Shown here in pieces: positions 2,032-4,714 of a DNA stretch of 33,111 bases. Each line of letters starts with the position of its first letter. Within the stretch, counting starts at the first letter, position 1. Position numbers and translations under genes: made by a program. The stretch spans positions 1 through 33,111 of the forward strand of contig QBMN01000029.1 in the NCBI GenBank assembly GCA_003241845.1, given 5' to 3'. The stretch comes from Shackletoniella antarctica. Lineage in GTDB: Bacteria; Cyanobacteriota; Cyanobacteriia; Phormidesmidales; Phormidesmidaceae. The notes below the pieces were generated by a model. It made no database searches. It was not told the origin of the DNA and worked only from the letters and a program-made list of their open reading frames with translations.

Positions 2032-2682
2032 ATGGTTGCCATTCAGCTGCGTCAACTCGATGTCCCGCCGGGGCAGCGCCTGCTGCTCCACGATGTCAGC
2101 TGGGCTGAGTTTGAGGCGATTCTCGAGGAGCTAGGCGAGCACCGCAGCACCCGCATTGCCTACGACCACGGATTGCTGGAGATTATGGCCCCTCTACCCG
2201 AGCACGAAGACGACAAAGAAATTCTCAGCGACCTGCTTAAAGCATTTATGGAAGAGTTAGACATCGAGCTGCGTGCCCTCGGGTCAACAACCTTCAAAAA
2301 ACAGGCCATGCTTAAAGGTATTGAGCCAGACCAATGCTTCTACATCCAAAATGAAGCGGCTATTCGCGGCAAAAAGCGCCTAGACCTGGCGGTCGATCCG
2401 CCTCCAGACTTGGCCCTAGAAGTTGACATCACCTCCCGCACCCACCCAGAAACCTATGCGGCGCTTGGGGTGCCAGAGCTATGGCGACGGGTCGGCGGCA
2501 AGATTCGCATTTATCAACTCCAGCAGGGTGAATATGTTGAGGTTGAAGAAAGCCCAGCTTTCCCAGGCTGGCCACTTCAGCGTGAGTTGGCTAAATTTGT
2601 CGAGCAAAGTCGAGTAGATGGGCGCAACCAGACTATTCGGGCTTTGAGACAGTGGGTGCGAGACACCGAAGCGGGCCTCTAG
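2032..2682 (+). CDS. Uma2 family (DUF820) putative restriction-endonuclease-like protein
   Basis: This 216-residue protein has the standard Uma2/DUF820 layout. The N-terminal segment contains YDHGLLEIMAPLPEHED, close to the family's typical 'G-x-L-x-I-M-s-P-x-x-x-H' pattern. The core strand RLDLAVDPPPDLALEVDITS carries the PD-(D/E)xK-like acidic residues, followed by a YAALGVPELWRR segment. Length is usual for the family, which is strongly expanded in cyanobacteria. Its biological role is not established; nuclease activity is predicted from fold only. The gene stands alone, divergent from the LpxB-like gene, with a long structured intergenic region after it. Confidence 0.88.
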   Translation: MVAIQLRQLDVPPGQRLLLHDVSWAEFEAILEELGEHRSTRIAYDHGLLEIMAPLPEHEDDKEILSDLLKAFMEELDIELRALGSTTFKKQAMLKGIEPDQCFYIQNEAAIRGKKRLDLAVDPPPDLALEVDITSRTHPETYAALGVPELWRRVGGKIRIYQLQQGEYVEVEESPAFPGWPLQRELAKFVEQSRVDGRNQTIRALRQWVRDTEAGL

Positions 2683-2880
2683 TTTATTTCTCGTAACAGA
2701 GCGATACGTAACTTAGACTACATAACATTCTTCTCAGGTTCAAGTTCCCGCTTTTGATCGCTCTCATAGGAGCCTATGGATTCCTAGGTTCTTTACCCAT
2801 AGGGAATTCTCCGTGGGCTATAAAAGACAGCCCGAAGAAAATCAGAGTTGTCGCCTAGCCCCTTTCTGAGAATGCTGATA

Positions 2881-2940
2881 AGCACTGTTACAGTTCACCG
2901 ACTTCATTCAGGATCATTGTCGGTGTCTGATCCCGGTGCT
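2881..2940 (+). promoter_or_regulatory. Nested stem-internal loop-stem upstream of a 9-codon ORF
   Basis: The outer arms AGCACTG (2881-2887) and CGGTGCT (2934-2940) pair over 7 positions with one wobble. The inner arms CACCGAC (2896-2902) and GTCGGTG (2919-2925) pair perfectly. They are separated by symmetric 8-base internal loops and capped by a 16-base loop. This could be a folded RNA leader. No family match is recognised. Confidence 0.35.
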
Positions 2941-2991
2941 AAGGTCTGAGTCAATGGATCGAATGGTCCTTCGCTAAGGAGAGCTGAAACC

Positions 2992-3021
2992 ATGACACGG
3001 GTACATCGATTCAGCGTTTAG
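2992..3021 (+). CDS. Possible 9-residue leader peptide (MTRVHRFSV)
   Basis: An ATG at 2992 opens a 9-codon frame ending in TAG at 3019-3021. It is preceded by AAGGAG at 2976-2981 with a 10-base spacer, an unusually good ribosome-binding site for an otherwise non-coding stretch. It follows a nested stem-loop and is followed 7 bases later by a GAGGCG/CGCCTC hairpin. That order resembles a translated leader, but the distance to the SDR start is 244 bases and no U-rich terminator follows the hairpin. A chance ORF cannot be excluded. Confidence 0.28.
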   Translation: MTRVHRFSV

Positions 3022-3265
3022 ATCGGGGGAGGCGCTTTGCCCTCGTCCCCGCCTCGGTAAAATCTGTAGACGCTCTAGCCTCTCTTCTCTAGCCCTTTTG
3101 CAGGGCAACTCCCGCTAAAGTTTCAGATTTTCCACTACTGGCCCAGCCCCCACCCCTAGGGCCAGCGAGAGCACACGCAACAATTCTCGCATTCGGTTTC
3201 GAACTATTGCTCAACCCACGTTTGATCGCGCTGACTGTTTTTACAGACTCAGCAGGAGGTTTTCT

Positions 3266-4072
3266 ATGGATTTTTACGGTAAAACCGCTCTGGTGACCGG
3301 GGCTTCTCGCGGCATTGGTCGCGCCATTGCCCACACCCTGGCCCGCCAGGGCATGCAGCGTATTTTGCTGGTGGCCCGCAACGCTGAGCGCCTGGAGATT
3401 GTCGCCGACGAGGTGCGGCAGCTGGGGGCTGAGGCCGTGGTGCTGCCGGTTGACCTGACCGACCCGATTCAGGCCAACGTGGTGATTGCCCGAGCCTGGC
3501 AGCACCACGGCCCCGTGCATCTGCTGGTCAACTGCGCCGGGGTGGCCCACCAGGCTCCGTTTTTGCAGGCCAAGCTGCCCCAGGTGCAGTCAGAAATTTC
3601 GACCAACCTGATTGGCCTCTACACCGTCACCCGCCTGGTGGCCCGCCGCATGGCCGTGCGCCAGGAGGGCTGCATTGTCAATGTCTCTAGCCTGATGGGC
3701 AAAGTGGCGGCCCCGACCATGGCCACCTACTCGGCGACTAAATTTGCGATCGTGGGCTTTACCCAAGCCCTGCGGAGCGAACTGGCCCCCCACCGGGTGA
3801 AAGTAGTAGCGCTGCTGCCCTCGCTGACCGATACCGACATGGTAAAAGGGTTTGACTGGTTTCGCGGGGTGCAGCCCTCGACCCCAGACCAGGTAGCTGA
3901 GGCGCTGGTGCGGGGCCTCAACCGGGGACACTCTGAAATCTTAGTGGGCTGGCAGAGCCACGCAGCGGTGTGGACTCAGCGGCTGGCCCCCTGGCTGATT
4001 GACCCAATGATGCAGGTGTTAGCGCCGTCTAAACCAGTTCAGCCGCGTCAGCGGCCTGCACGATCTACTTGA
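3266..4072 (+). CDS. SDR family NAD(P)-dependent oxidoreductase
   Basis: This 268-residue protein is a classical short-chain dehydrogenase/reductase. The Rossmann dinucleotide motif is TGASRGIG (residues 11-18), the N-x-A-G motif appears as NCAG (89-92), and the catalytic Ser is in VSSLMG (about 141-142). The catalytic Tyr and Lys are in YSATK (Y155, K159). Substrate is not deducible; FabG-like and other ketone/alcohol reductases share these motifs, and a longer C-terminal tail than FabG argues against the core fatty-acid enzyme. The start at 3266 is supported by AGGAGG at 3254-3259. A small hairpin (3230-3253) abuts this site and might modulate translation. It converges with the PerR-like gene. 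Confidence 0.92.
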   Translation: MDFYGKTALVTGASRGIGRAIAHTLARQGMQRILLVARNAERLEIVADEVRQLGAEAVVLPVDLTDPIQANVVIARAWQHHGPVHLLVNCAGVAHQAPFLQAKLPQVQSEISTNLIGLYTVTRLVARRMAVRQEGCIVNVSSLMGKVAAPTMATYSATKFAIVGFTQALRSELAPHRVKVVALLPSLTDTDMVKGFDWFRGVQPSTPDQVAEALVRGLNRGHSEILVGWQSHAAVWTQRLAPWLIDPMMQVLAPSKPVQPRQRPARST

Positions 4073-4270: not shown

Positions 4271-4714
4271 CTACTTGGCGGCTGTGGTGGTGCCAAAGAA
4301 ATCAATGCGGTAGTCGGTGATGGTGACCCCGGTGCGGCCTTCTATTTGCTCAATTAAATCCGGGGGTAGGGTCACCTGAATGTCAATAATTTCGTCGGTG
4401 TCGAGACAGTTGACGTGGCTGTGGGAGTCGCTCAGGTGGCCGTAGAGGCGACCGTCGGCGCGTTCGACGCACTCAATAATGCCCTGCTCTGAGAGGGCGT
4501 CGAGGTTTTGGTAGACCGAGGTGTGGCCAATCTCGCGGCCCTGCTGGCTGAGGCGGTTATAAATTTCGCGAGCAGAGAGGTGCTCGTGGTTTTGCCAGAG
4601 CAATTCTAAGATGTAGCGCCGCTGCCGACTCAGCCGCATGCCCAGCACCTGGCAGCGCTCCAGGGCATCTTCTAGGCAAGTAATTGGCTTTTGGAGCCTG
4701 GCTTGATCATCCAT
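4271..4714 (-). CDS. perR: Fur-family regulator of the FurC/PerR type
   Basis: This 147-residue DNA-binding protein has the winged-helix half with SRQRRYILELLW (29-40), LSAREIYNRL (46-55) and the recognition helix HTSVYQNLDALSEQGII (64-80). The metal-site histidines appear in DSHSHVNC (96-103). The two C-x-x-C structural zinc motifs of Zur and many Fur proteins are absent. N-terminal ITCLEDALERCQVLGMRLSRQRR closely resembles cyanobacterial FurC/PerR proteins, which control peroxide-stress genes. The PerR identity is from family resemblance; binding sites were not identified. A 15-bp tandem repeat lies 53 bases upstream of the start (4767-4796) and could be an operator. Confidence 0.85.
   Translation of the reverse strand: MDDQARLQKPITCLEDALERCQVLGMRLSRQRRYILELLWQNHEHLSAREIYNRLSQQGREIGHTSVYQNLDALSEQGIIECVERADGRLYGHLSDSHSHVNCLDTDEIIDIQVTLPPDLIEQIEGRTGVTITDYRIDFFGTTTAAK

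Follow-up and report, generated by a model that had tools for sequence, protein, structure and literature searches.

A conserved promoter and short upstream ORF ahead of an SDR oxidoreductase gene in Shackletoniella antarctica and other cyanobacteria

What is encoded in the 583 bp that lie ahead of an SDR oxidoreductase gene in the cyanobacterium Shackletoniella antarctica? The question was addressed within a window of 33,111 nucleotides (the whole stretch of DNA that was analysed, contig QBMN01000029.1). A first-pass annotation had listed a nested stem (2881-2940), an AAGGAG, a 9-codon ORF, a GC-rich hairpin and the SDR ribosome-binding site, all of which are present. Comparison among cyanobacteria supports a promoter block, its linkage to the SDR gene and, in the predicted leader, a conserved Shine-Dalgarno sequence, upstream ORF (uORF) start and short ORF length. 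The features are as follows.

2874-2891, plus strand: degenerate HLR1-like box with two halves spaced by 10 bp (GCTGATAA-GC-ACTGTTAC), candidate RpaB site
2917-2922, plus strand: -35 hexamer TTGTCG
2937-2945, plus strand: extended -10, TGCTAAGGT (TGC-TAAGGT), assigned by comparison of SDR-linked promoters
2951-2954, plus strand: predicted transcription start, placed from the position of the -10
2976-2981, plus strand: Shine-Dalgarno sequence AAGGAG of the leader ORF, kept in the genus alignment
2992-3021, plus strand: leader ORF (uORF) of 9 codons, MTRVHRFSV, with its ATG at 2992 and a conserved frame
3024-3051, plus strand: GC-rich hairpin after the uORF
3230-3253, plus strand: hairpin directly before the SDR Shine-Dalgarno sequence
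3254-3259, plus strand: Shine-Dalgarno sequence AGGAGG of the SDR gene
3266-4072, plus strand: SDR family oxidoreductase of 268 aa, the main ORF linked to the leader

The locus and the extent of its conservation

The main ORF is assigned to the SDR family by its match to Pfam adh_short (E 1.1e-55); in NCBIfam, none of the best 25 of 227 matches reached its cut-off. The closest SDR proteins among named relatives are those of Leptolyngbya sp. DLM2.Bin27 (94%) and of Nodosilinea strains (89%). Upstream lies a Uma2-type gene (2032-2682), and on the 3' side a Fur-family gene (4271-4714, minus strand) is convergent to the SDR gene. The top NCBIfam matches of this Fur-family regulator are PerR and Fur models, both under their cut-offs.

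When the 583-base query was searched against the DNA of 57 genomes, 23 matched, and all but one of these are the own genome or congeners. The matched intervals end in a recurrent place: 17 of the 26 stop at query position 312-314, which is the end of the ATG of the 9-codon ORF or just past it. When all SDR loci were oriented and their upstream regions aligned (alignment A1, which omits L035 with its 14-nt insertion), the conserved block of the genus extended from about 2865 to 2997, and the leader was poorly conserved between the uORF and the SDR gene. In one genome with a split SDR match (G024), the block and a 9-codon frame are present as well (L018). Two congeners (G014 and G022) lack the block, and their SDR matches are only distant ones. 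In the closest relative (L028) the leader is longer by about 100 bases that include an inverted repeat, GTAGGGTGGGCACTGCCCACC, apparently a small repeat that was inserted between the uORF and the SDR gene.

A predicted sigma-70-type promoter and the nested stem

On sequence comparison, the block at 2917-2945 is a predicted sigma-70-type promoter with an extended -10, positioned upstream of the same SDR gene across cyanobacteria. A core pattern of the block matched at 81 places, spread over 76 of 388 genomes in the class, against 7 for a reversed control pattern. In 83 of 97 distinct promoter sites an SDR gene follows 124-1151 nt downstream; the other 14 comprise three contig ends, eight small membrane-protein ORFs and three likely chance matches. 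Among the SDR-linked sites, the TTG of the -35 lies 17 bp from the -10 in 76, 18 bp from it in three and is lacking in four, a spacing that, like the shape of the -10, is partly imposed by the search pattern. Matches to R1, a sequence-only profile of the block, are free of that constraint. They occur in 51 of the 388 class genomes, at one place each, and in 52 of 80 named SDR loci at E<=0.05, many of which are species already in the class-genome set; many of the named loci without an R1 match bear a diverged form of the promoter. Within the genome of the window itself, the core has a single mismatch-free occurrence; three further places appear at 3 mismatches, a level at which the control also has one.

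For the analysis of conservation, promoters were divided by SDR identity into a near set (at least 77%, 20 promoters) and a distant set (below 77%, 63 promoters, including three loci of the same genus, L078, L079 and L080). The distant promoters align as TTCTGAGA - TGTAACAAT - TTAATAAATGTTGCAG - CTTGATCCC - TAGGGT, with CTTGATCCC lying in the 17-bp spacer between -35 and -10, which carries a conserved CTGATCCCGG. In the distant set, the ten bases up to and including the -10 carry 1.44 bits per base; past them, information content drops to 0.56 and then to 0.16. Because the -35/-10 pair is kept in distant relatives and conservation is lost right after the -10, the block is read as a promoter; in the window the two hexamers are 17 bp apart. 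A generic consensus promoter scan of the window returned no site, and TAAGGT fits just 3 of the 6 letters of the -10 used in that scan. An alternative -10 further upstream (TGTTACAGT, 2886-2894), which would place the nested stem partly within the transcript, was rejected in that the distant alignments favour the downstream promoter.

The promoter reading bears directly on the nested inverted repeat at 2881-2940, which the first-pass annotation had treated as part of a structured leader. If the reading is right, this stretch is untranscribed from that promoter, and the stem is probably conserved promoter DNA upstream of the transcription start. Its left arm sits between a conserved TGAGAA and the -35, and in distant relatives this arm is not kept, whereas the promoter hexamers are. 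The same observation weighs against reading the nested stem as the core of a structured regulatory RNA (riboswitch-like or a small RNA). Such an RNA would fit the high conservation of the stretch within the genus and the predicted stability of the stem region (2870-2950 folds at z -1.99, with 6 of 200 shuffles as good); the whole 583-bp stretch folds at z -2.09, with 2 of 100 shuffles as good. However, covariation is at shuffle level. Across 22 relatives, double-sided change was found in 3 pairs of the nested stem against a shuffled mean of 3.0, and 78.6% of cells pair, equal to shuffles. For the block, RNAalifold on 22 relatives gave an energy of -3.17 kcal/mol with a covariation term of 0.12 kcal/mol, none of it in the fold's favour, and no conserved fold. 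Rfam gave no match at gathering score anywhere in the window; at E up to 10, the sole match in 2600-3300 was a chance-level snoRNA on the opposite strand. A separate small RNA is made somewhat less likely by the lack of any terminator-like site between promoter and SDR gene in 80 leaders (strict criterion). Taken with this evidence, a structured regulatory RNA is very improbable, and the stem is better accommodated by the promoter. A second stable inverted repeat is found upstream of the promoter at 2771-2819 (2760-2840 folds at z -2.13, with 9 of 200 shuffles as good).

Upstream of the -35, an HLR1-like box suggests a candidate regulator. The HLR1 consensus consists of two (G/T)TTACA-type halves 10 bp apart. 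The best HLR1 match fell at one fixed position, 72 bases upstream of where the -10 ends, in 45 of 63 distant and 16 of 20 near promoters. Among distant promoters, 45 of 63 score at least 9.5, compared with 15% of base shuffles; near promoters match weakly, with 1 of 20 at this level compared with 6% of shuffles. RpaB control of the SDR promoter is inferred from this candidate site. Published motif examples link the HLR1 box to RpaB and high-light genes (PMC6331805). As in the HLR1/RpaB promoters of high-light genes it describes, the half-sites here are 10 bp apart and, in the distant set, lie mostly at one place upstream of the core; unlike them, the box is degenerate in this genus and binding is putative. 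The SDR promoter is probably light- or redox-regulated.

The same composite promoter is also found before another class of gene. In eight genomes (loci L098, L112, L223, L229, L230, L231, L235 and L245) it precedes an ORF of 35-37 aa with one hydrophobic stretch. The four of these ORFs that were scanned show a weak relationship to Psb35 (NF047380, E 1.6e-6 to 1.5e-5, under the cut-off). Psb35-related ORFs under the same promoter fit a photosynthesis or light regulon, which the SDR gene and the 35-37 aa ORFs may share. In three loci of one genus (g34; L240, L241 and L242), the promoter is followed by an ORF of 54-65 aa ending in a shared MK.AVA.SLKLCLFT..VLLG core; that of L241, the one scanned, had no NCBIfam or Pfam match.

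A short ORF in the predicted leader

The leader ORF with its Shine-Dalgarno sequence appears, by comparison, to be real and conserved well outside the genus. Every one of the 23 genus loci whose SDR ortholog is full-length has an ATG at this place with a short frame behind it; the frame has 12 codons in twelve loci, 9 in six, 13 in three, and 10 and 18 in one each. The Shine-Dalgarno sequence is weaker (AAAAAGAG, AAAGAGAG or CAAGAGAG) in six of the genomes in alignment A1. In three genomes the promoter lies 124-133 nt before the SDR gene and there is no uORF.

Occurrence beyond the genus was evaluated in 80 distinct leaders of at least 160 nt, by scanning the first 130 nt for ATG or GTG starts only. 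This set excludes four loci with contig ends before the SDR gene (L103, L105, L109 and L111) and three with leaders below 160 nt (L220, L221 and L222). A strict Shine-Dalgarno sequence with an ORF of at most 25 codons was found in 54 of the 80, compared with 3.6 on average in shuffles (at most 10 over 200 rounds), a count in which related genomes enter more than once, as near-identical species were merged only at 80 identical nt. The passing leaders include 16 of 23 from the genus and 38 of 57 others. The excess over shuffles holds as length is restricted: ORFs of 7-15 codons occur in 50 leaders (shuffle mean 1.5, maximum 5), and ORFs of exactly 12 codons, the commonest length both in the genus and among the 80 leaders, in 24 (shuffle mean 0.12, maximum 2). 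Counted from the end of the -10, the uORF starts after 38-93 nt. A similar picture emerged from further named loci in which the first core pattern had missed the promoter. Of 36 such loci, 13 had no usable near-match; 11 of the other 23 passed, all with 10-13 codons, a result without a shuffle control. They include Anabaena, Fischerella, Sphaerospermopsis and Oscillatoria strains, and one of them (L133) is a genus locus counted before.

These counts speak directly to the possibility that the uORF is an annotation artefact, a functionless short ORF that happens to lie downstream of a conserved promoter. Short ORFs are common, and 26 of the 80 leaders fail the strict test, some of them plainly homologous with a weaker ribosome site or a different start. 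An origin by chance is nevertheless scarcely credible against 54 leaders where shuffles give 3.6, 24 with exactly 12 codons where they give 0.12, and the 11 further loci. The "translated leader" of the first-pass annotation is supported as far as Shine-Dalgarno sequence, start codon and short ORF are concerned, with translation itself predicted.

Conservation of the encoded peptide depends on the lineage. In Scytonema/Brasilonema-type leaders the peptide is conserved as ML[YHD][IVL]NLG..xI[HR]-stop. Across 11 ML-type loci picked by hand, differences affect 28% of the ORF positions compared, 58% of those in the downstream flank and 49% of those in the upstream flank. Differences at codon positions 1, 2 and 3 of the ORF number 186, 139 and 230, a mild coding pattern; the corresponding values are 370, 389 and 382 in the downstream flank and 307, 326 and 345 in the upstream flank, which is not flat either, and the six most divergent loci show a weak pattern (61, 54 and 69). 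In the present genus, no peptide conservation was found among seven 12-codon loci. Their differences by codon position run 54, 77 and 40, with 15 synonymous and 125 non-synonymous changes, and a conserved peptide in this genus was accordingly rejected. The opposite codon pattern means that only the start, the ribosome site and the short length are kept there. The peptide conservation suggested for examination by the earlier annotation holds for the Scytonema/Brasilonema type and fails in the genus in which the ORF was first noted.

This mixed outcome has consequences for two further explanations. According to the first, the product of the uORF is a functional micropeptide, active in trans or at the membrane, so that promoter and uORF form a small gene of their own and the SDR gene is read either from the same transcript or from its own promoter. 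Several distant cyanobacteria do share both the 12-codon length and a similar sequence (MLYVNLGFSLIH, MLYIHLGSTPIR, MLHINPGAALIH and MLDLNLGDRSIR), and HliR1/SliP4, encoded upstream of sodB, offers a precedent (PMC5126843). Against a micropeptide stand the drift of the peptide in this genus, the occurrence of versions of 4-9 aa, and the linkage to SDR: apart from the Psb35-type ORFs, the short-ORF sites without an SDR gene are contig ends (L105, L109 and L111) and a likely chance match (L239). We regard this explanation as unlikely.

The second holds that the uORF is passive, with early ribosome binding merely stabilising the 5' end of the mRNA and conveying no signal. It would account for a presence and a short length that are kept while the genus peptide drifts, and for the weak structure around the uORF start; of the stretches tested, the one with the Shine-Dalgarno sequence and ORF has the least structure (mean MFE -4.6). 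It sits poorly with the conserved peptide of Scytonema/Brasilonema-type leaders and with the sharp preference for 12 codons, and is likewise doubtful.

Termination, hairpins and a possible cis role of the uORF

The region downstream of the uORF gave little indication of a conserved switch. The GC-rich hairpin noted right after the ORF exists at about 3024-3051, and its stability is ordinary (z -0.68); over 61 leaders, the 45 nt from the uORF stop had a mean z of -0.08, with no excess structure. The notion of a structured leader was accordingly not upheld: the nested stem falls in conserved promoter DNA that is probably upstream of the transcription start, and in relatives both the stem and the hairpin behind the ORF lack covariation and exceptional stability. 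A slight structure excess was seen in the 45 nt starting 42 nt past the uORF stop (42-86; mean z -0.51, s.e. 0.16, n=61). Directly before the SDR Shine-Dalgarno sequence, the outer GCTG/CAGC stem of the hairpin at 3230-3253 is kept in the 18 closest genus loci. Its inner stem beats shuffles at p<=0.05 in individual folds of 13 of 18 related sequences and reforms in different registers across the genus. Double-sided change was found in 0 of its pairs, a count spoiled by a register shift in part of the genus. The pre-SDR hairpin (3230-3259) could mark a processed 5' end or a site of translation control.

Classical attenuation, by a terminator or a Rho-dependent stop, was considered and rejected. 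A strict script criterion, run without a positive control, detected no terminator-like site between promoter and SDR gene in any of the 80 leaders, and none was found in the 2600-3300 region. A search for the Rho domain gave 0 hits in the own genome, with 9 of 14 control genomes positive. The lack of terminator-like sites and of Rho makes attenuation by termination unlikely, and in a genome that shows no Rho the uORF would not act by the usual Rho route. Between uORF and SDR gene lies a long gap of variable size, 204-409 nt within the genus and 123-781 nt across the 54 passing leaders, which makes direct translational coupling or reinitiation unlikely.

These observations are most simply combined in a model in which a regulated promoter gives rise to an mRNA with a long leader, and the uORF near its 5' end affects SDR expression in cis, a proposal we hold to be about evenly balanced. 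A light- or redox-regulated sigma-70-type promoter (HLR1-like box, -35 and extended -10; 2874-2945) would start the mRNA near 2952, leaving about 314 nt of leader ahead of the SDR gene. About 40 nt into this leader, a ribosome would bind AAGGAG and translate the 9-codon ORF. Early ribosome loading may then protect or open the long, otherwise untranslated leader and so tune SDR expression. This cis effect of ribosome loading is favoured. A bolder alternative is a peptide-dependent stall, in which the uORF encodes an arrest-type peptide of about 12 aa that senses a photosynthetic or redox signal during translation and controls the SDR mRNA without Rho or a terminator; we consider it quite unlikely.

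The nearest described arrangement found is the hliR1 (sliP4)-sodB unit of Synechocystis 6803, in which a light-induced, RpaB-controlled promoter reportedly precedes a very short ORF with read-through into sodB (PMC5126843, PMC12850537). HliR1 is a 37-aa membrane protein, for which no homologs outside Synechocystis were reported in 2016 (PMC5126843). The analogy lies in the promoter logic and in a very short ORF followed by a gene for a redox-related enzyme. In contrast to hliR1, the ORF here usually has 7-15 codons, too short for a membrane helix, the main gene encodes an SDR protein, and RpaB is a candidate regulator. Among bacterial regulatory uORFs, those described for TopAI-YjhQ (PMC12121999) and for the translation-aborting small ORF upstream of a Salmonella Mg2+ transporter gene (PMC8092293) are also comparable, with a short ORF, its own ribosome site, a long 5' leader and a single linked gene. 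Here too, a start codon, a Shine-Dalgarno sequence and an early stop are kept upstream of one gene. In contrast to those systems, no terminator-like site, Rho or conserved switch structure was found for the present leader, and its gap is long and variable. No description of this leader ORF was found in the literature within reach.

If the favoured model is right, it would add a conserved leader ORF to cyanobacteria and tie an uncharacterised oxidoreductase to an apparent light regulon that includes Psb35-related ORFs. With its conserved length of 12 codons, the uORF would offer a concrete, testable case in a lineage for which the genome analysed here shows no Rho.
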